32,771 nt of DNA from a virus. The notes under the pieces are model-generated. The model ran no database searches. It was given only the letters and a program-made list of their open reading frames with translations, and was not told the origin of the DNA. Within the stretch, counting starts at the first letter, position 1, and each line of letters starts with the position of its first letter. The DNA lies in the IMG/VR virus record IMGVR_UViG_3300044522_000086, positions 1 to 32,771 of that record. The stretch is one strand, 5' to 3'. This document shows, in pieces, positions 21,541 to 32,467 of this stretch. Position numbers and translations under genes: made by a program.

Positions 21541-22206
21541 CTACATCACCAACGGCTTATACGGACGCAACAATTGCGCTACGCCGAAAGGAATGTCATT
21601 TAACTTGGCTTCCGTTGTGTTGCTGCGATTGTTGTAAATGTGCGTTAAAAGCATTAATCCCGCTTGCTTAATAACAGGATATTGACCGACAGGGTTAGCG
21701 TTACAAGTGTAAGTAACCATAATCGGGTTCGTTACAAAGTTGCTAACCGTGTTTGGCAAGCCGTTAACGACAACCTTGTTACCAGTTGGGTCGTAGTAAT
21801 AGGTTGATGCTGCCATCGTAATTAGTACGGGCGCAGTATCGCCATTAAAGTATTGAACCGAATTAATGGTTACGCCTGCCTGCCCTTGAAAGGCTTGTGA
21901 CACCTCTGGCAAGTCTAGGCTTACCTGACTGCCACCCATGCCGTTAAACGTGCCGTAGTAGGTCTTATATTGGACGGCAAAGATACTCATTCCCAAATAG
22001 TCCTCAATAGCCATTCTTGTGGCAAGTTCGATGCTGCTTAGGTATGAATCTTGGCTTTCGTCTTGAAATAGATTTAACTGTTGAGTAATTTCCTCGAGCG
22101 TCAACCACTCCGTAACAATGTCACGGGTAACCTGCTCAACTTTTTCATAGTTAAACGGGTTGCGGTTAGTGCCTAGATAAGGATTTCCTGCCAATGTGTC
22201 AGACAT
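21541..22206 (-). CDS. Head-tail connector (gp6-like adaptor)
   Basis: A 221-aa connector protein. The region LTLEEITQQLNLFQDESQDS, followed by YLSSIELATRMAIEDYLGMS (about residues 36-75), matches the helical core of HK97 gp6-like adaptor proteins, and the C-terminal helix (KQAGLMLLTHIYNNRSNTTE) also fits. Between them lies a beta-rich insert of about 90 residues (SLDLPEVSQAFQGQAGVTIN), as seen in larger members. It should form the ring under the portal. It follows the second capsid gene. Confidence 0.82.
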   Translation of the reverse strand: MSDTLAGNPYLGTNRNPFNYEKVEQVTRDIVTEWLTLEEITQQLNLFQDESQDSYLSSIELATRMAIEDYLGMSIFAVQYKTYYGTFNGMGGSQVSLDLPEVSQAFQGQAGVTINSVQYFNGDTAPVLITMAASTYYYDPTGNKVVVNGLPNTVSNFVTNPIMVTYTCNANPVGQYPVIKQAGLMLLTHIYNNRSNTTEAKLNDIPFGVAQLLRPYKPLVM

Positions 22207-22209
22207 AAT

Positions 22210-23244
22210 TTAAACACCTACCAGACGCACACCTGCAAACACATCACGAATAGTTGAGCAAACACGCTTCTCTGCAAACAGGTAAATAAAGCCCGGTTGC
22301 GTCTGGTCAAAGCGTTTAATGCTCATTAATTCGTTGTCAGCAATCGTAAAGAATTGTGACCATTCGGCAAGGTAGACGGGATATTTTCCGACACCGCTAA
22401 TGTCCATGTACGGATTAGGAATAACACGATGTCCAAAGATAAATACGACTGCGCCACCATCTTCACTACCGACTTCAATAAAATGGTTTAGACTTCCTGA
22501 CTGTTTAAGTTTACGCAATACACCAATCGTTGTCGGATGCATCATCCAAGCGGTTGTGTCTTTGTATAAATATTGTGATGGCAATGCTGCTTGTAGGTTT
22601 GCTAAATCATCATAAGCAACAGCTTGATGCGCTGCTTGTGCAACCTGTAAAACCGTGTGTACGCCGTTAGTAATTGCAGAACCGCTAGTACCAAAGGCTG
22701 CTGCTGTTGTGCTGCCTAGATAGCTGTTAAGCCCACGCAAACCACTTGTTGCGCCAAACTGAACTGATGTGCTTCCAGCTTGGTCATTGTTGAGCATCAT
22801 TGAGAGGGATTCTTGCTCTGCGAATTCGAGCATTAAATCATCAACGATAGCTTCTTCTAGTGCGTTAATGTCAGACATCACCGCTGTTCTAATTGGTACA
22901 CCTGCGTTAATTGAACGCACGGGAAGTTGCCAGAACGATGTAGCAATGTTTGGAGAACCCGTATTGTTGTTTACAGGATAGCCCCAAGGGTTGTTGCTGC
23001 CGTTTTGAATCAACGTAGCGTTACCAGTTTTTACAACGAACGCTTGGTCTGAACCAATCGTTTCAATAATTCTTGATCCATCACGCAGCGGATTGTGTTC
23101 ACGCCTAGACGCAAAAGCATCATCATAAATTACTTGACCGCCAACACCCGAACCAGACCCAGTTAATGCGGATGCTTCTTTCAAGTTAACGGTTGCGCTG
23201 CCTTCAAGCAGAGCGGTCTTAATGGATTCGAGAATTAGGCTCAT
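22210..23244 (-). CDS. Second HK97-fold capsid protein (paralogue of the major capsid protein)
   Basis: A 344-aa protein homologous over its whole length to the capsid protein encoded just upstream. Shared blocks include KEASALTG-G-G-GG, NP-R--SR, WGY, WQL, PIRTA, NNDQA, GLRGL--Y and AFGTSG, and the near-terminal DQT-PGFI and EKR. The identity is about a third or more by eye. It lacks the 80-residue coiled-coil N-terminal domain of the other copy: only about 22 residues precede KEASALTG. The HK97 fold parts (E-loop, spine helix region, A-domain) appear intact. It could form pentons, as T4 gp24 does beside gp23, or mix in the shell. The ribosome site is weak (TGGAATAAAT), suggesting lower synthesis. 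Confidence 0.85.
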   Translation of the reverse strand: MSLILESIKTALLEGSATVNLKEASALTGSGSGVGGQVIYDDAFASRREHNPLRDGSRIIETIGSDQAFVVKTGNATLIQNGSNNPWGYPVNNNTGSPNIATSFWQLPVRSINAGVPIRTAVMSDINALEEAIVDDLMLEFAEQESLSMMLNNDQAGSTSVQFGATSGLRGLNSYLGSTTAAAFGTSGSAITNGVHTVLQVAQAAHQAVAYDDLANLQAALPSQYLYKDTTAWMMHPTTIGVLRKLKQSGSLNHFIEVGSEDGGAVVFIFGHRVIPNPYMDISGVGKYPVYLAEWSQFFTIADNELMSIKRFDQTQPGFIYLFAEKRVCSTIRDVFAGVRLVGV

Positions 23245-23269
23245 ATTTATTCCAGTATTTATTAGTAAT

Positions 23270-23294
23270 CGGGGTGAGTTTTGAGCCCACCCCG
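23270..23294 (-). other. GC-rich hairpin between the two capsid genes
   Basis: In the 58-bp gap the minus strand reads CGGGGTG, an 11-base loop (GGCTCAAAACT), then CACCCCG, a perfect 7-bp stem. No run of T follows on the minus strand (ATTACTAATAA), so full termination is unlikely. It may cut expression of the second capsid gene or protect the 3' end of the major capsid message. On the + strand the hairpin is followed by GTTTCTT and could act on antisense transcripts. Confidence 0.6.
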
Positions 23295-23302
23295 TTTCTT
23301 AC

Positions 23303-24646
23303 TTAGTTTGCTGTGCCTGTTGAGCGATAGCGAATGATTGAGAAAGGATCGACCACGGATGTGGCTAATCTCTTTTCTCCGTAAAAAGTTATAAATCCGG
23401 GCAACGTCTGATCGTATCTACGCAGAATCATGTTTAAACGATCAACGATAGTATGACCTTTCTGGAAGTCACCGAAGTACATTGGATACAAGCTAGTTGT
23501 ACCGACTGCACCAACGGTTGCTTGTGAAGGATTCTCACAATACTTGTTAACGACCACATCAAAGCCAAGCAATTGACCAACAATGCCATCAGCACGAGCA
23601 AGACCGTCAACGTAAATTGGGCGTCCTTGCAAGTCTGTCAAACCACGAATTGCTTGGAGCAACACGGGATTAATCACGAAACATGCTGTAGTTGTCCAAT
23701 ACTGTTGTGGCAAGCTGTAGATGAAGTTGATAACGTCTTTGTATGTAATGTTGTTTGCGCCAACGGTATTGGCGTTTGTGGTCAATTGGTCATAAGTTGC
23801 AAGGCTATGCAAACCGGAAGTTGAACCTGTGCCGCTTGTGCCAAAGGCTGCGGTACTGATTGTTCCACCTGTGTATGTAGCGTTGTTACCTGCGTATTGG
23901 TCAAGACCACGCAGACCGTTAGTGCCGCCGTATGGATTGGATGCAGACTGTGCGGCTTGGTCATTGTTGCCGATCATCGATTGCGCCTCAGCCTGACTGA
24001 ATTCTGCCATCATGTCTGATACGACATTAGCTTCCAGACCATCGATGTCATCAAGTGCGGCTGTACGGATTGGGAACTGGACGTTCAAATCTTGCAAAGT
24101 CAATTGCCAGATATTTGTGTTTTCAGTCGTTGCTGCACCGTTGTTTTGAATGGCATAACCCCATGCTGCACCTGCATCACCAACCTTGGCACGGAACTGG
24201 TATGTTGCTCCGTCAGTAGCAACAGAACGGGAAACGCCACGCATAGGATTAAGCAAACGCAAAGGTGCGAATACTGGATCATAAGCTGTACGTCCACCGA
24301 TACCTGCACCGCCGCCTGTCAATGCTGAGGCTTCTTTCATGTAAGCATCATACTGACCTGCATCAGCAAACATTTTTAGTTCTTTTTCAACCTTAGCACC
24401 AGACTTGTAAAAGTCACGGATTTGCTCTTTAATAGTACGGTTGACTTCTTGAGCGATTGTTTTGTAAGTCTTAATAACTGGCACGGCTGAAACAGAAGAT
24501 ACCTTCGCTTCTAGTGCTGCGACTTTTTCCTCGAACGATGCTTTCGCTTCTTCAATTGCGGCTACTGCTTGTGCTTTAACTTCGTCAATCTTAGCTGCAT
24601 TTGATGCTTCGATTGCGTCAAGTTTTTCAATGATTTTTTCTGACAT
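23303..24646 (-). CDS. Major capsid protein, HK97 fold
   Basis: A 447-aa major capsid protein. Residues 1-50 are a strongly predicted coiled coil (MSEKIIEKLDAIEASNAAKI; AKASFEEKVAALEAKVSSV), the delta-like scaffolding domain. The mature region begins near residue 105 with KEASALTGGGAGIGGRTAYD, the expected place of prohead protease cleavage. The rest has HK97 shell features, for example GLEANVVSDMMAEFSQAEAQ, NNDQA, GLRGLDQYAG and DQTLPGFITFYGEKR. It follows the protease gene and has a good ribosome site (TAAGGACTTATC). A diverged paralogue lies directly downstream, separated by a hairpin. Two capsid genes of this type in tandem are unusual. Confidence 0.92.
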   Translation of the reverse strand: MSEKIIEKLDAIEASNAAKIDEVKAQAVAAIEEAKASFEEKVAALEAKVSSVSAVPVIKTYKTIAQEVNRTIKEQIRDFYKSGAKVEKELKMFADAGQYDAYMKEASALTGGGAGIGGRTAYDPVFAPLRLLNPMRGVSRSVATDGATYQFRAKVGDAGAAWGYAIQNNGAATTENTNIWQLTLQDLNVQFPIRTAALDDIDGLEANVVSDMMAEFSQAEAQSMIGNNDQAAQSASNPYGGTNGLRGLDQYAGNNATYTGGTISTAAFGTSGTGSTSGLHSLATYDQLTTNANTVGANNITYKDVINFIYSLPQQYWTTTACFVINPVLLQAIRGLTDLQGRPIYVDGLARADGIVGQLLGFDVVVNKYCENPSQATVGAVGTTSLYPMYFGDFQKGHTIVDRLNMILRRYDQTLPGFITFYGEKRLATSVVDPFSIIRYRSTGTAN

Positions 24647-24655
24647 GATAAGTCC

Positions 24656-25447
24656 TTAAATACGTTTGGATAATGCCGCTAACAATTCTCTTTCCTCTAA
24701 GGCTTTTAGAATGTTATCGGCTTCATTGACCACCGCATCAGGCTCACCCTGCTTTGGGGCTTCCTCAATAGTCTTAGTAGCGTCACGCTGTTCTAATACT
24801 TTCTTGAGGATAGAAGATGCGGTGGTCGCATCTTTTCGTGATAGTCCTGCATCACGCAAGACTTTCTCAACTGCTCTAGGGTTTGCGTTTCCTTCAGCGT
24901 CAAAATATTCCAATTGTTGGATATTCGCCTCTGGATTATTCGGGTACATAACCACCGAAATTTCACGCAAGCCACCTTTAGTGATTTGGAAATATGCCTC
25001 GCTATCGTCTGCACCAGACACAAGGGCGTTGCCTTCAGCGTCAACCATACAGGCTTCATCAGCATAAGCACCGACAGAAACGCCGCCAAACATTTTGGGC
25101 GATTCTTTCAATACTGAATATGCGTCTGCACCTGCCATAGTGTTTAGGAATAAACGACCTTTTGCGCTCATGCCTTCATCGTCAAACATCACTTCGTCCC
25201 ATTGACCGATAGGCATACCAATATCGTTATGGTTTAAAAACATTGGCATTGGTTTTTCAGACTTGGCAAACTCATCAGCCCAATCCATAAAACCTTCTGG
25301 CTGATAGTTAAACCTGCGTCCGTCTGCACCTTCTCGTGCGCCCCATGTAGTTACACGGGCTTCAATTGCACCAGTTGGGTTCGCTGCCTCGTCTGCGGAT
25401 TTACCAAGATCAAGTTTTGCTTCGCAGATTAGAGTGATATTTTTCAT
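24656..25447 (-). CDS. Prohead maturation protease
   Basis: A 263-aa HK97-type prohead protease. The domain spans about residues 10-165: VTTWGAREGADGRRFNYQPE, then MPMFLNHNDIGMPIGQWDEV with His in the FLNH motif as likely catalytic residue, and GGLREISVVMYPNNPEANIQ, whose Ser in EIS is the likely nucleophile. The last 90 residues are helical and charged and may bind the scaffold domain. It should remove the capsid delta domain and itself. I chose the ATG at 25447 (MKNITLICEAKL) with GGGG upstream, not the TTG four codons earlier. The first 38 bp overlap a small ORF. Confidence 0.9.
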   Translation of the reverse strand: MKNITLICEAKLDLGKSADEAANPTGAIEARVTTWGAREGADGRRFNYQPEGFMDWADEFAKSEKPMPMFLNHNDIGMPIGQWDEVMFDDEGMSAKGRLFLNTMAGADAYSVLKESPKMFGGVSVGAYADEACMVDAEGNALVSGADDSEAYFQITKGGLREISVVMYPNNPEANIQQLEYFDAEGNANPRAVEKVLRDAGLSRKDATTASSILKKVLEQRDATKTIEEAPKQGEPDAVVNEADNILKALEERELLAALSKRI

Positions 25448-25577
25448 TAATTGCCCCAAGTTTTATGGATTGGTCATTATCTTGTATTTTGGGCAACACT
25501 ACTTTTTTTGGTAGTTTAGCATTAGGACGCTTAATTTGTGTAGTTAATAACGCACAAAGTTGTTTTATGCCCATCAT
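25410..25577 (-). CDS. Possible 55-aa basic protein between portal and protease
   Basis: An open frame of 55 codons fills the 126-bp gap between the portal stop and the protease start. It starts with ATGATGGGCATAAAACAAC, the first ATG overlapping the portal stop as ATGA, with GGAACGAC upstream as a possible ribosome site. The product begins MMGIKQLCALLTTQIKRPNA and continues KLPKKVVLPKIQDND. It is basic, without a membrane segment or recognised family. It overlaps the protease start by 38 bp. The coupling and exact fill of an otherwise odd gap support it. Its short length and lack of homology evidence argue caution. Confidence 0.45.
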   Translation of the reverse strand: MMGIKQLCALLTTQIKRPNAKLPKKVVLPKIQDNDQSIKLGAINEKYHSNLRSKT

Positions 25578-26971
25578 GTCGTTCCAATTGCGGCTCTGCG
25601 CTTTTGGTTTCCACCGCCGCCACCAGTATCTTGTGGGCTATTTCCCGTCATTGGCTCTGGTGCTTTGCCTTGAATAAGCTCATCATGTCCGTCCATTTTG
25701 GGCATATTGAGATATTCACGGGCTTCGTTTTGCGTGATGATTCCTGCGCTTACACCTTGAACAGCAAAGTTCATCTGGTCTAAAGCTGCGCCTTTTAGGA
25801 AGTCTTTAGTATCAAACCTCACGCACAAATTAGGATAGCCTTTAAACAAGTGATAGTTTAATTTCTGCTCAATATTAATAATCATCGGGTACATGGTGGC
25901 TTTATAAAACTCATCCATCATTGTCTGGGTGTTGTTGTACTTCTGGTCGGCTATGCCAATCATTGCGGGTGGAACGCCAAACAATCCGCAGATACGCTTC
26001 ATTGTTTGATTCTTTAATTCTTTGGTTTCCGTGTCTTGCAAGGTCAGCATATCTAAGGGCTGATACTTCATACCTTGGTCTAGTAGCATACCTTGACCGG
26101 GCTTACTTAGGTCAGTCTGTCGGCTGCCTGTCATAGATGACCAAGCCTCTTTAAGTCTGCTTGCAATTTCTTTGTATTTAGCGTCTGGGATGACTTGTTC
26201 TGTTACAAACATTCCGCTTGGCTTTGCGCCGTTCTGCATAACAAAGTTAGCATACAGGTCAATGTCTTGATCTAATGCGACCAGTTCGGTAGCTAGGATA
26301 CCTTTGTTAAATCCGCTGCTGCCTTGCCAAGCCGCTTCCTTAATGTGGCAAACTTGATGCGCTGATAGCGGCTCATCTTTGTTAAACCCGTAACTTGGCG
26401 TACTAAGTGAGTATGCAGGGTAGCGGGTTTCTGTGAGCCGTGCAGTAATCAATGTGCTATCAAGGTTGTACATCTCGATTGGTGTTTGCATTGATTCCTC
26501 TTGTTTGGCTCGCCACCAAAGCGTAAAGGTTTCTCCTGCTAAGTCTTGCCACATTGACCATTGATACCAAAATTCATATTGGCTTTGGAAGTTGTTAGGA
26601 TTGCGTAGCAGGTTTAGCACTTGCTTGGCTTTTGCTTTATCCCTTGCGCCAATTTTAGGTGACTGCAAAGCGTCAACAAATGTACCGTCATCGCTTTTGC
26701 TCATAATACTAATTGGCAATTGTGCTAATGCTCTAGCCTTAACACCCACCGCTGCCATAACTGTAGAGTTACGAGTCAGCATCGACATATCTACTGTGCG
26801 ACCTGCCGTAGTGGTGCTGCTAGTCGTTACATATAAAAGCTGTTGGCTAACGGTTTGCCGCCCACCTTGCCCCTGATATATGACATTGTTACCTAATTGG
26901 GTTTGTCCAAATAGCGTATTTGACTCTTTTTGAGCCGTTTTTTTGCTCTTAAATATGTCAAACATACCCAT
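25574..26971 (-). CDS. Portal protein, HK97 family
   Basis: A 465-aa portal protein. It begins MGMFDIFKSKKTAQKES and has typical HK97 portal blocks: VDMSMLTRNSTVMAAVGVKA, LLRNPNNFQSQYEFWYQWSM, GETFTLWWRAKQEE, and the wing/clip region PDAKYKEIASRLKEAWSSMT. FGVPPAMIGIADQKYNNTQT and TMMDEFYKATMYPMIINIEQ are the conserved alpha-helical stem and crown segments. The C-terminus is Gly-rich and basic (GGGGGNQKRRAAIGTT). It should form the dodecamer at one vertex through which DNA enters. I chose the ATG at 26971 with GGTGA just upstream. It lies between terminase and protease, the standard place. Confidence 0.93.
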   Translation of the reverse strand: MGMFDIFKSKKTAQKESNTLFGQTQLGNNVIYQGQGGRQTVSQQLLYVTTSSTTTAGRTVDMSMLTRNSTVMAAVGVKARALAQLPISIMSKSDDGTFVDALQSPKIGARDKAKAKQVLNLLRNPNNFQSQYEFWYQWSMWQDLAGETFTLWWRAKQEESMQTPIEMYNLDSTLITARLTETRYPAYSLSTPSYGFNKDEPLSAHQVCHIKEAAWQGSSGFNKGILATELVALDQDIDLYANFVMQNGAKPSGMFVTEQVIPDAKYKEIASRLKEAWSSMTGSRQTDLSKPGQGMLLDQGMKYQPLDMLTLQDTETKELKNQTMKRICGLFGVPPAMIGIADQKYNNTQTMMDEFYKATMYPMIINIEQKLNYHLFKGYPNLCVRFDTKDFLKGAALDQMNFAVQGVSAGIITQNEAREYLNMPKMDGHDELIQGKAPEPMTGNSPQDTGGGGGNQKRRAAIGTT

Positions 26972-27012
26972 GTTTTCACCCAATAAATAAACGATTGTTT
27001 ATCAATTTTAAA

Positions 27013-28680
27013 CTAAAAGCTACGAAAACCAAAACTATTGGATACATAAGGGTTATCTAATGAACAATGCGAGGCAATTATTAAAGCAATAATTCCGTCC
27101 ACCTTAGCTGATTTGTCAGCTTCGTTTTTTCTAACTTTAATATTTCCGTTTACATCCTCGTAAACCTCGCAGTTACCAAGCTGCCAACCGACAAAAGGGT
27201 TGCCGTCATGCTTGATTTGATAGTTAAGGATTAACTTTTCTATATATTTTGATGGGTTAGACAATGTAGCCATGCCCTGCCCGACTTTCTTAACTGGTAT
27301 CCCATCATCATGCAGACGGGCAACAAGTGACGCAGCATTGTAGGCATCATAACCAACCTCTTTAGCGTCATACAGGCTGCATTGTTGCTTAATGTATTCG
27401 CTAATCTCTCGGTCATCCATTACATTTCCTTCAGTTAGTTTTAATATGCCGGATGCAATAGCTACTCTAAAGATGTCCATGTAATGCTTGGGAACGTGTG
27501 TAAGCCCTTCTTCTGGCAGAAAGAATTGCCAATGGGCTTCGTAGTCCAATTCGCCAAAGCGTTTTAGCGTACAGACAGCATTTAAATCCCGTGTAGCAGC
27601 TAAGTCAAAGCCAATAAATACGGCTTCAGGTTTGCGGTCTTGCTCAACAATAAGGGCTTTTTTATCGTCCCAGTACGCACGGTCTAGCCATGCTGTATTA
27701 GCAGATACAAAGATATTTAACGTCTTACAAAGAAACTCGTTAAGAGCTGCGGGTTTAAATTTGGCTTCCTCTGCTCGTTGTGCAATAGCTTCTTCAAATA
27801 CGCTGATGCCGTGCATTGGGTTAGCCTTTTGCCAGTTCACAGGGTCACGCCAATCGTCCTGTGGGTCTAGTCCGTACAACAAGCCAAACCATTTCGGGTT
27901 GTCTGTAGCCTCGCCATAAAGCATGGATTGATACATAGACATATCTTCATAAAACTTGGTTTCTTTAGTAAACGATGCGGTAGTGATGTAAATACGCAAC
28001 GGATTCTGCCTAGCCACCATGCCAGAATGCAGAACCTCTATTGAATTTCGGTCAACAATCTGAGCTGCTTCGTCAATAATTACGCATGATGGGTTCTTAC
28101 CGTCACCCGTTTTCTTGGTGTCTCTGCTTAATGCTTTAAACATAGATTGAGCGTCACCAACCTTTTTAATCTCGTATTTAGATTGATTAAATAGGTTGCT
28201 AAACTCTTTGGGCATATTGTCTATAAAGCCCTTAGCGGCATCGAATACGATAGTCGCTTGTTCTCTATTGGTTGCCAGAGTAAAGACCTCAGAACCTGCC
28301 TCACCACAGGCTAACTCGTATAAGGCTATTACCGCTGTCAGCGTAGACTTTCCCGCTTTGCGTGGGATGTACACAATGACATCCGACACCATGCGCTTAT
28401 TGCGGTCTTTCTTATTGCGAAAGCCGTAGATAGCAACAATCAGGAATATTTGAAAAGGCTCAAGCTCTATAGGTTGCCCTGCCTGATGTCCCTTAGTGTG
28501 GCGTAGTTGTGACGCAAACTCTAAAACGTGTTGCGGGTAATCTTCGTCAAATACCCATTGCCAATCTTGATTCTCGTACTGGTTAAGAAACCGTTGGCAA
28601 GCTAGGCGAACGTCACGGCATACATTTATGTTACCAACCGCAACTTGTTTTGCATATACAACACCGTCCGTCCAGTTCAC
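27013..28680 (-). CDS. terL: Terminase large subunit
   Basis: A 555-aa DNA packaging motor. The ATPase domain has a Walker A motif PRKAGKST near residues 106-113, Walker B CVIIDEA near 199-205 and a coupling motif (YITTASF, near 231). The C-terminal nuclease begins FIGFDLAATRDLNAV, with Asp near residue 359 as the first metal ligand, and continues with GYDAYNA and DGIIALI. This is the Terminase_1 family, found in HK97-like phages. The start is GTG, overlapping the small-subunit stop as GTGA, so the two are co-translated. It works with the portal encoded next. Confidence 0.95.
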   Translation of the reverse strand: MNWTDGVVYAKQVAVGNINVCRDVRLACQRFLNQYENQDWQWVFDEDYPQHVLEFASQLRHTKGHQAGQPIELEPFQIFLIVAIYGFRNKKDRNKRMVSDVIVYIPRKAGKSTLTAVIALYELACGEAGSEVFTLATNREQATIVFDAAKGFIDNMPKEFSNLFNQSKYEIKKVGDAQSMFKALSRDTKKTGDGKNPSCVIIDEAAQIVDRNSIEVLHSGMVARQNPLRIYITTASFTKETKFYEDMSMYQSMLYGEATDNPKWFGLLYGLDPQDDWRDPVNWQKANPMHGISVFEEAIAQRAEEAKFKPAALNEFLCKTLNIFVSANTAWLDRAYWDDKKALIVEQDRKPEAVFIGFDLAATRDLNAVCTLKRFGELDYEAHWQFFLPEEGLTHVPKHYMDIFRVAIASGILKLTEGNVMDDREISEYIKQQCSLYDAKEVGYDAYNAASLVARLHDDGIPVKKVGQGMATLSNPSKYIEKLILNYQIKHDGNPFVGWQLGNCEVYEDVNGNIKVRKNEADKSAKVDGIIALIIASHCSLDNPYVSNSFGFRSF

Positions 28681-29153
28681 CCCTTCGCACCTCGTAGAAA
28701 CTTGCTAATGCTTGAATCGTCATCAGGCTTTTTAACGCTTAATCTACCTCTAGGCGTTAACCCTAATTCGTTCATTAATTGAATAATTAGCGTTGCTGCT
28801 TTGTTCTTAATGCCAACATAAGGTGATGCGCCTGTAGTCTTGCCATCGTTGTAATCAACAACTAATCCCGTCTGTGCTATTCCTGCTACACAAGTTACAT
28901 ATGTTTCTACTTGGTCAGCCAACATTGATAGCGTGGTTTTTTCCTGTTCGCTTCCAATCCCGTAAACCTCAAAAAGATAATTAGATGTTTCGGCAATAAA
29001 GGTTTTTCTATTCCATGCGCTTGGGTTGTCTAACCATTCGGCTTCTGGAATTCTTTTTTTAATTGAGTCAGGAACAACCGCAGTATTCTGCGTAGACTTG
29101 CCTTTTGGCTTTGTCCCGTCAATTAAGTGAAGTTCTGGAGGTTTTTTGTTCAT
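28677..29153 (-). CDS. terS: Terminase small subunit, P27-type
   Basis: A 158-aa protein that recognises phage DNA for packaging. It has the P27-family layout: an N-terminal basic, Pro/Lys-rich arm (ELHLIDGTKPKGKSTQNTAV), then P-W..N-KTFIAETSNYLF, the helical centre (EQEKTTLSMLADQVETYVTC) and the ending NELGLTPRGRLSVKKP. The start ATG has no ribosome site, and a promoter -10 box ends six bases before it, so the mRNA may be leaderless. It stands directly before terL. The DNA-binding region is expected in the first third. Confidence 0.78.
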   Translation of the reverse strand: MNKKPPELHLIDGTKPKGKSTQNTAVVPDSIKKRIPEAEWLDNPSAWNRKTFIAETSNYLFEVYGIGSEQEKTTLSMLADQVETYVTCVAGIAQTGLVVDYNDGKTTGASPYVGIKNKAATLIIQLMNELGLTPRGRLSVKKPDDDSSISKFLRGAKG

Positions 29154-30731: not shown

Positions 30732-30880
30732 TGTTCCGCCCATTGTTGTAAATCACAGCTTAATATTTGAATGTCTACAGCAATGTCTGCGGCTTCCTCA
30801 TAGTTATGCTTATTTACTGCGGATTCGTAATGGTTAAGCAGGGCTTTAATCGTAATAAATGATAGTGCGTAATCTTTCAC
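30707..30880 (-). CDS. Hypothetical small helical protein, 57 aa
   Basis: A 57-aa acidic, helical protein (VKDYALSFITIKALLNHYES, then AVNKHNYEEAADIAVDIQIL). Start GTG at 30880 is supported by AGAGG seven bases upstream and by a GTGA overlap with the IbrA-like stop. A longer form starting at 30907 is less likely. Proteins of this kind occur as small accessory ORFs in phage recombination regions, with no known function. Translational coupling to IbrA suggests joint expression. Confidence 0.6.
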   Translation of the reverse strand: MKDYALSFITIKALLNHYESAVNKHNYEEAADIAVDIQILSCDLQQWAEQCTEIKSS

Positions 30881-32100
30881 TTTGCGACCTCTGGAAAAAT
30901 GTTCCACTCTTTTCTGCGTTTTTTTGATAGCTCAATGTACTTTTGATATGCGGCACTTTTAGTAGGTGAAAACCCTAAACCCTTGCACCAATAATCATTA
31001 CGCAAAAAAGTTTTGCATATTTTGCGCCATGTAGGTACTTTCCCTGCGCTTTCTAGTCTAACTTCAGCTAAATCAGGTATACCTTGCTCATACCCACGCT
31101 TAGACCACCATTTAATGTAAACAGCTAACTTATTTTTGTAATGTTCGGCTGTTTTCGGAGGCATTGTGTTTAACAAGTGCTTTGCAAAACTTTCGTATGT
31201 ATGTCCTTTAGGCAATGAAATATGATGATTACCTAATACTGCGCCTTTTTCTGTTGAATACAATGCGCCTGTATTTGCACCCGCTACTCGAAGGCACACT
31301 TTAGCCCACATTGACGGCTCTACAACTTGATAAAGCCATAAACCTTTTCTTGCTTCGTCGCCAAATGGCTCACAAATCCTCATTTGACTAATCTTTATGC
31401 CTGCTTGGTGCATACGGTCATAAAGTTTGTTATATGGCTTATTGGCTTTTGCAAAATACGTCCAAATATCTTCAGTACGCCAATCATAAATTGGATAAAT
31501 ATTCCAAACATCAGCGATGGCGTTAGTAGTCCATGCTTTCCCGTCATACTTTGGCTTATCGCTTCTGGCAACAGTTCTAAAGCGATTTAAACTTTCGTCT
31601 GCTCGTATCCCTACAAAACAAGCACACGATTGACCTTGTGCGTACCATTCGCCAAATTTAGGAACAAATTCTTCAAATGGCATACCTTCGTAATAAAACG
31701 GAAAATAAGCCATGTCAGTAATGCTTTCAGGTTCAGGTTGTCTAACCCATAATTCTTTTTTCTCGTTGTCCCATGCTGTCCACTCAGGTTCAATTTGACT
31801 GCAAGCGTTCCATGTCTTAATCGGTAACGCAACCCAATACGGCTCAATGTTGTCAGCATATTCAGCGTACATCTTTTTGGCAAAATCAATAGTTAAACCA
31901 ATTTGACATTCCCAATCAATAAAAAAACAACCTACTTTGCGATTGCGTTTTTTTGCCTCATCCATTACTAAATGCAACATTACCGCAGAATCTTTACCTG
32001 CACTAAACGACAAATATATTTTTTCAAACGTGTCAAATGTCCATTCAATTCGCTGTTTAGCGGCTGTTAGTACATCAATACCTATCTTATGTTTTGGCAC
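30877..32100 (-). CDS. ibrA: IbrA-like PAPS-reductase family protein (DUF3440)
   Basis: A 407-aa protein. Its PP-loop motif SFSAGKDS lies near residues 31-38 and binds and splits ATP in PAPS-reductase/adenylyl-transfer enzymes; GCFFIDWECQIGLTIDFAKK follows. The C-terminal half is DUF3440, ending with TWRKICKTFLRNDYWCKGLG and FSPTKSAAYQKYIELSKKRR, the tail of IbrA. IbrA and IbrB were described as co-activators of prophage genes in E. coli; the chemistry is not settled. The family relation to DndC suggests nucleic-acid modification, which is inference. I chose GTG at 32100, with GGAAAGGA seven bases upstream, over the ATG eight codons earlier. It overlaps the 126-aa gene by 14 bp. Confidence 0.85.
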   Translation of the reverse strand: MPKHKIGIDVLTAAKQRIEWTFDTFEKIYLSFSAGKDSAVMLHLVMDEAKKRNRKVGCFFIDWECQIGLTIDFAKKMYAEYADNIEPYWVALPIKTWNACSQIEPEWTAWDNEKKELWVRQPEPESITDMAYFPFYYEGMPFEEFVPKFGEWYAQGQSCACFVGIRADESLNRFRTVARSDKPKYDGKAWTTNAIADVWNIYPIYDWRTEDIWTYFAKANKPYNKLYDRMHQAGIKISQMRICEPFGDEARKGLWLYQVVEPSMWAKVCLRVAGANTGALYSTEKGAVLGNHHISLPKGHTYESFAKHLLNTMPPKTAEHYKNKLAVYIKWWSKRGYEQGIPDLAEVRLESAGKVPTWRKICKTFLRNDYWCKGLGFSPTKSAAYQKYIELSKKRRKEWNIFPEVAK

Positions 32101-32467
32101 AATATTTTCCTTTCCAATATGCAATAGCGTTATCTGCCGCTTGGTTTGCCAAGTCTTGTTGCTCTTGTGTCAGCGTTCGCCATGCTAGTCTTGTTATGTC
32201 TTCTGGTGCGTTATGGTTTATTGCACATCCTGCGTGACCAATCCATGCTTGATGATTAATTGACGATGCAGTTAAGCTAGCTTCACACGAATACTTCCAT
32301 TCGTCAACGACTTTTTTCATTGCTGTTTCAAATTTGTTGCAATCCAACATAAGTGCCGCCGATTGATCTTGATAAAATTGTCGGTCTTGTACTGGCACTT
32401 GTTTCCACATATTGGTGTTGTATTCTTCGCACAACTTATAGTGGTGAAATACTCTTTTAATCTTCAT
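32087..32467 (-). CDS. Hypothetical protein between the IbrB- and IbrA-like genes, 126 aa
   Basis: A 126-aa protein that starts MKIKRVFHHYKLCEEYNTNM and ends YWKGKYCAKT. It is mostly helical, with a Cys/His-containing middle (ASSINHQAWIGHAGCAINHN) that could hold a metal ion, and a final region WRTLTQEQQDLANQAADNAI. I recognise it as a type of small protein seen near ParB/PAPS-reductase gene pairs in phages, without a known function. It overlaps the IbrB-like gene by 11 bp and the IbrA-like gene by 14 bp, so all three should be co-translated. I chose the ATG at 32467 over TTG at 32470. Confidence 0.7.
   Translation of the reverse strand: MKIKRVFHHYKLCEEYNTNMWKQVPVQDRQFYQDQSAALMLDCNKFETAMKKVVDEWKYSCEASLTASSINHQAWIGHAGCAINHNAPEDITRLAWRTLTQEQQDLANQAADNAIAYWKGKYCAKT

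Follow-up and report, generated by a model that had tools for sequence, protein, structure and literature searches.

Two tandem genes on the minus strand of a viral DNA stretch from IMG/VR encode paralogous HK97-type capsid proteins, called cap1 and cap2 here, which arose by one old duplication and are fixed as a pair throughout a large group of small tailed phages that has received little study. Tailed phages normally use one protein for both the pentamers and the hexamers of the head. On balance, the favoured reading is that cap1 and cap2 are subunits of one head, in which cap1 builds the hexamers and cap2, as a minor component, builds the pentamers of the vertices.

Gene order, homology and fold of the two capsid proteins

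The window, which means the whole stretch that was analysed (record IMGVR_UViG_3300044522_000086, a linear viral record of 32,771 nt), carries a head and tail module of siphovirus type on its minus strand, in the order terminase small subunit (TerS), terminase large subunit (TerL), portal, S78 protease, cap1, cap2, adaptor, tail genes and a lambda-type tape measure. TerS (28677..29153, minus strand) belongs to PF05119 and is followed by TerL (27013..28680, minus strand), by the portal protein (25574..26983, minus strand), which matches PF04860 with 205.8 bits, and by the prohead maturation protease (24656..25459, minus strand), which matches Peptidase_S78 with 38.7 bits. The two tandem capsid open reading frames described by the first-pass annotation are both present on this strand. 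The cap1 gene (23303..24646) encodes the major capsid protein of 447 aa and the cap2 gene (22210..23244) encodes a paralogous capsid protein of 344 aa, while the head-tail adaptor gene (21541..22206, minus strand) starts 3 nt past the cap2 stop codon. A gene with a PAPS-reductase and a DUF3440 domain (30877-32124, minus strand) adjoins the packaging module, and a glycoside hydrolase family 19 protein, likely the endolysin, is encoded at 1026-1643 on the minus strand.

In a BLASTP comparison cap1 and cap2 share 36% identity and 54% positives over 345 columns (E=1e-55), and profile-profile alignment relates them with 100% probability (E=3e-81) over 321 columns with 37% identity. PF05065 (Phage_capsid) is the only Pfam family that either protein matches above any cut-off, with 109.9 bits for cap1 and 63.9 bits for cap2 against a gathering score of 24.2. 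These E-values, together with the recurrence of the pair at every related locus, exclude chance homology. The shell domain is shared as had been claimed from the motifs, each of which occurs in both proteins and in identical order. Residues conserved in both paralogues are spread across the whole shell domain, and the paralogue-specific sites, each with one fixed state in cap1 and another in cap2, are few (11), scattered and outline no clear single interface.

The N-terminal shortfall of cap2, previously put at about 80 residues, is 82, being the difference between the 103 residues that precede the KEASALTG motif in cap1 and the 21 that precede it in cap2. Residues 1-102 of cap1 (24341..24646, minus strand) form a helical delta- or scaffold-like region, absent from cap2, and helices are predicted at 2-52, 64-81 and 96-106 in a low-confidence model (mean pLDDT 51). 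Residues 1-20 of cap2 (23185..23244, minus strand) form an N-terminal peptide that is conserved in cap2 proteins, with the consensus SLILEAIKxALxEGxATVN and a helix predicted at 3-14.

The AF2 model of cap2, which was made from an alignment of 46 relatives (pLDDT 65, pTM 0.70), has the HK97-like fold on which the proposal of two capsid proteins depended: it matches 281 PDB chains at E<=0.001, the best being the RcGTA capsid (E=1.8e-14), and HK97 prohead and head chains are among its top matches. Its fold matches also include 9bix, a family 2B encapsulin. For cap1 the model is of low quality (mean pLDDT 51, pTM 0.44), probably because the alignment is shallow, and its top matches are HK97-fold capsids (6tb9, E=9e-10); both models are too coarse for a preference for pentamers or hexamers to be read out of their fold matches. 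When the PDB is searched by sequence with the cap1 and cap2 profiles, RcGTA is the best match of both.

Recurrence, age and variation of the pair

A cap2 search of IMG/VR gives 81 related stretches, of which 80 were kept, and independent cap1 searches bring hundreds more stretches and five bacterial or archaeal MAG contigs. Both capsid genes are present at 353 of the 379 loci from the IMG/VR scans and the genome scan; these loci are not all independent, some contigs having been fetched by more than one scan, and the number of distinct complete pairs is 230. Most of the remaining loci (21) end less than 400 nt past cap1, another three have their start within cap2 or 83 nt ahead of it, a single fragment contains no capsid open reading frame at all, and the lone apparent exception, L083, was rejected as a case of cap1 without cap2, its HNH endonuclease gene lying between cap1 and an intact start of cap2. 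At these 379 loci no cap1 gene without cap2 was found where the locus is sufficiently long, and no third capsid open reading frame was found at any of them. A search for single-copy relatives in genomes across the whole class yielded no genome other than the one it started from.

The group is abundant in aquatic metagenome contigs and nearly all of its members are known from environmental DNA alone. The MAG contigs (L087-L091) are binned under labels as diverse as Nitrosotalea, Alpha-, Beta- and Gammaproteobacteria and Rhodocyclaceae, which is probably mis-binning, so that hosts other than Methylophilaceae are unsure. At two loci a free-standing homing endonuclease gene separates cap1 from cap2, of GIY-YIG type in one (L021:5307-5986) and of HNH type in the other (L083:3629-3990), both judged by eye from the translation.

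A maximum-likelihood tree that takes seven single-capsid phages as outgroup places all cap1 proteins in one clade (96/89), all cap2 proteins in another (98/98) and the two together in a third (100/100), which indicates a single duplication before the group radiated. Because of the long outgroup branches, the position of the root is less certain than the grouping of cap1 and cap2. In the seven outgroup phages no second HK97-type capsid gene of the cap2 kind was found after the first. The stem branch of cap2 (0.91) is about twice as long as that of cap1 (0.41), as is expected if the new role was taken by cap2.

Both proteins are under equal and strong purifying selection, with a median dN/dS of 0.080 for cap1 and 0.083 for cap2 in 102 comparisons, and neither copy is decaying. 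Mean identity of the shell is 75% among cap1 and 61% among cap2 proteins, cap2 being the more diverged, and the pairwise divergences of the two are moderately correlated (r=0.48). Isolated breaks of a single reading frame occur at the 3' end of cap2 in L021 and near 838-872 in cap1 of L051; these are probably sequencing or assembly errors.

The description of cap2 as a protein without scaffold is right for the window and for most relatives and fails for 13 of the 230 distinct cap2 proteins, in which a different domain of about 100 residues occupies the N-terminus. This domain, phrog_2859, is present on two distinct branches within the cap2 clade and at the N-terminus of no cap1 among the 230 distinct pairs. 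It is found also at the start of protease-capsid polyproteins in Roseobacter phage CRP-406 and Synechococcus phage S-CBS1, which makes it a head-associated module. In three of the 230 cap2 proteins a repeat-like insert of about 70 residues, of the phrog_21413 type, lies in the region of the E-loop, as at L074:6169-6378 and L077:4146-4355, and the tail fibre family phrog_38233 is similar in sequence to this insert. The cap1 shells keep to a narrow range of lengths (332-353 residues), and additions are tolerated more by cap2 than by cap1. In the eleven long forms of cap2 that were inspected, which come from both branches (L062, L065, L067, L071, L072, L073, L023, L024, L025, L027 and L078), the motif GAAAAGGAA stands ahead of an internal ATG at the point where short cap2 proteins start, so that two lengths of cap2 may be made.

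Expression signals and the role of cap2 in the head

The gap between cap1 and cap2 is 58 nt long in the window and contains a G/C hairpin with a stem of 9 bp (CGGGGTGGG-CTCAAAA-CTCACCCCG; 23270..23294, minus strand). Across 108 distinct gaps the hairpin has 73 different 5' arms and a stem of at least 6 bp in every case; it is conserved in shape and not in sequence. In 60-nt control regions the median stem score is 9 upstream of cap1 and 11 after cap2, against 22 for the gap. Shuffling gives a median z of -2.9, and for just 46 of the 108 hairpins was there no equally stable shuffle; this test is weak when taken alone because runs of G and C survive shuffling, and the diversity of the arms and the comparison with neighbouring regions are the better evidence. 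A T-rich tail follows the hairpin in 66 of 108 relatives, where it resembles an intrinsic terminator; the hairpin of the window has no T-run and is not called by terminator prediction, which leaves it unsupported as a canonical terminator.

Three single-capsid phages that were checked have the same hairpin after their capsid gene. The element is thus ruled out as proof of a regulator specific to cap2. It did not evolve for cap2 and marks where a highly expressed capsid gene ends, and the best reading of it is a general end-of-capsid-gene element, with cap2 and the adaptor gene both lying behind it. Ahead of cap1 the longest match to a Shine-Dalgarno sequence spans 4-7 nt, ahead of cap2 mostly 3-4 nt. 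The position behind the hairpin and the weaker ribosome site suggest that cap2 is a minor product, made in smaller amounts than cap1.

For the favoured division into cap1 hexamers and cap2 vertex pentamers, we infer unequal amounts, co-assembly, a T number and cleavage, and the vertex position would rest mainly on analogy with T4. Abundant cap1, with its delta-like N-terminal region, would nucleate assembly and make the hexamers, while the scarcer cap2 would join the growing cap1 shell and form the pentamers at the eleven vertices that are not occupied by the portal. A T=7 head would then contain about 360 copies of cap1 and about 55 of cap2; T=7 is assumed because the genome is of about 38 kb, a size taken from Methylophilaceae phage P19250A (38.7 kb), the window itself being of 32.8 kb. 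JBD30, a siphophage of similar genome size (36.9 kb), has a T=7 head with 415 subunits (PMC11445458). Ahead of DNA packaging, the S78 protease would cut off the N-terminal part of cap1 and possibly a short peptide of cap2.

The main rival to a vertex role, which is unlikely but deserves the most weight among the alternatives, keeps both proteins in the shell and places cap2 beyond the vertices, in mixed hexamers or in a special belt or ring, for example near the portal. Two-component shells of HK97-fold proteins with mixed and irregular tiling are known from family 2B encapsulins (PMC12407261), one of which, as noted, is matched by the cap2 model, and the adjacency of cap2 to the adaptor gene and the 36-37% identity of two proteins with common core motifs would also fit such an arrangement; the hairpin and the weak ribosome site point instead to a minor cap2, and the one well-described precedent in tailed phages is a vertex protein (PMC9958956; PMC13185644). 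It is rather improbable that the pair forms an obligate two-subunit shell with mixed capsomers, a belt or a portal-proximal ring, a lattice so far unseen in tailed phages, in which cap2 would not be simply a vertex protein and in which some cap2 proteins would bring an internal N-terminal domain of their own and possibly be made in two lengths from the conserved internal start.

Somewhat less probable still is a role of cap2 as an assembly factor (a nucleator, a size determinant or a trigger of the protease) that is lost or degraded in maturation. The missing delta-like region and the presence, in 13 of 230 cap2 proteins, of a domain that is N-terminal in protease-capsid polyproteins elsewhere would agree with it, and binding of T4 gp24 has been proposed as the trigger of the protease (PMC9958956), but the whole shell domain of cap2, including the C-terminal PGFI and EKR motifs, is conserved under purifying selection, a degree of constraint that a transient factor would not require. 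Very improbable is a cap2 that sits outside the icosahedral shell, for example in the neck or as decoration, with its HK97 fold retained: the adaptor gene lies 1-14 nt downstream in most relatives and inserts are tolerated, as such a role would allow, whereas the searches gave no neck or decoration protein with the HK97 fold and the positions conserved in both paralogues span the entire shell domain. The notion of a redundant or decaying copy, or of an assembly artefact, to which the single-frame breaks at two loci might point, is ruled out by the dN/dS of cap2, by the isolated and error-like nature of those breaks and by the recurrence of the pair as 230 distinct complete pairs from many samples and in an isolate genome.

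Comparison with known capsid systems

The window phage is P19250A-like, with a common packaging and head module and a close TerL. In Methylophilaceae phage P19250A (KX815270) the genes follow the order TerS-TerL-portal-[protease]-cap1-cap2-adaptor, as in the window, and identity between the two is 71% for TerL, 69% for the portal, 67% for cap1 and 56% for cap2, while the next best matches after P19250A reach 35% for TerL and 24% for the portal. Among isolates, P19250A alone has a cap2 match in the phage collection that was searched. Its cap2 is annotated as 'hypothetical protein', and the analysis offers a likely function for this conserved protein of freshwater methylotroph phages. The phrog_2859 domain of some cap2 proteins is shared with Synechococcus phages S-CBS1 and S-CBS3 and with Roseobacter phage CRP-406; it precedes the protease-capsid polyprotein in CRP-406 and S-CBS1, whereas in cap2 it is joined straight to the capsid domain.

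The major capsid protein of RcGTA (6tb9, 6tsu), which is the best match of cap1 and cap2 both by fold and by PDB sequence search, is a single protein that forms both pentamers and hexamers (PMC7296036). In family 2B encapsulins two different HK97-fold shell proteins co-assemble, and these are cellular nanocompartments with irregular mixed tiling (PMC12407261); a two-component encapsulin is ruled out for cap1 and cap2, which are flanked by portal, TerL, TerS, protease and tail genes.

A 2026 review describes the use of distinct penton and hexon proteins as rare, names T4 as the phage example and ties the T4 case to its large genome (PMC13185644). No other siphophage with two capsid paralogues was found in the openly licensed papers that were searched, nor did virion proteomics or a structure come up for any member of the group. 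The comparison with T4 gp23 and gp24 drawn by the first-pass annotation is apt as an analogy, the T4 vertex protein too having a much shorter propeptide (PMC9958956). T4 gp24 probably arose from gp23 by duplication and forms 11 pentamers, while gp23 forms the hexamers, and on cleavage gp24 loses 10 residues against 65 for gp23 (PMC9958956). Both systems thus have a paralogous HK97-fold pair from a duplication, a second member with a shorter N-terminal pro-region and a gene for a prohead protease. They differ in identity, which is about 20% between gp23 and gp24 (PMC9958956) and 36% between cap1 and cap2, and in scale, T4 being a far larger myovirus with a prolate head (PMC9958956) and the cap1/cap2 genomes being of about 38 kb. 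Unlike the T4 proteins, cap1 and cap2 belong to PF05065 and were duplicated within their own lineage: neither matches the T4-type capsid families in Pfam and the two are each other's closest kin in the tree, so by these two tests the pair is not of T4 descent. The pair bears on whether every subunit of a shell needs a delta-like region, and it provides a second natural experiment in how one capsid protein splits into two specialists. It is apparently an independent case of a hexamer/vertex-type duplication, in genomes of about 38 kb, and a vertex role of cap2, the most likely one, would be convergent with that of T4 gp24.
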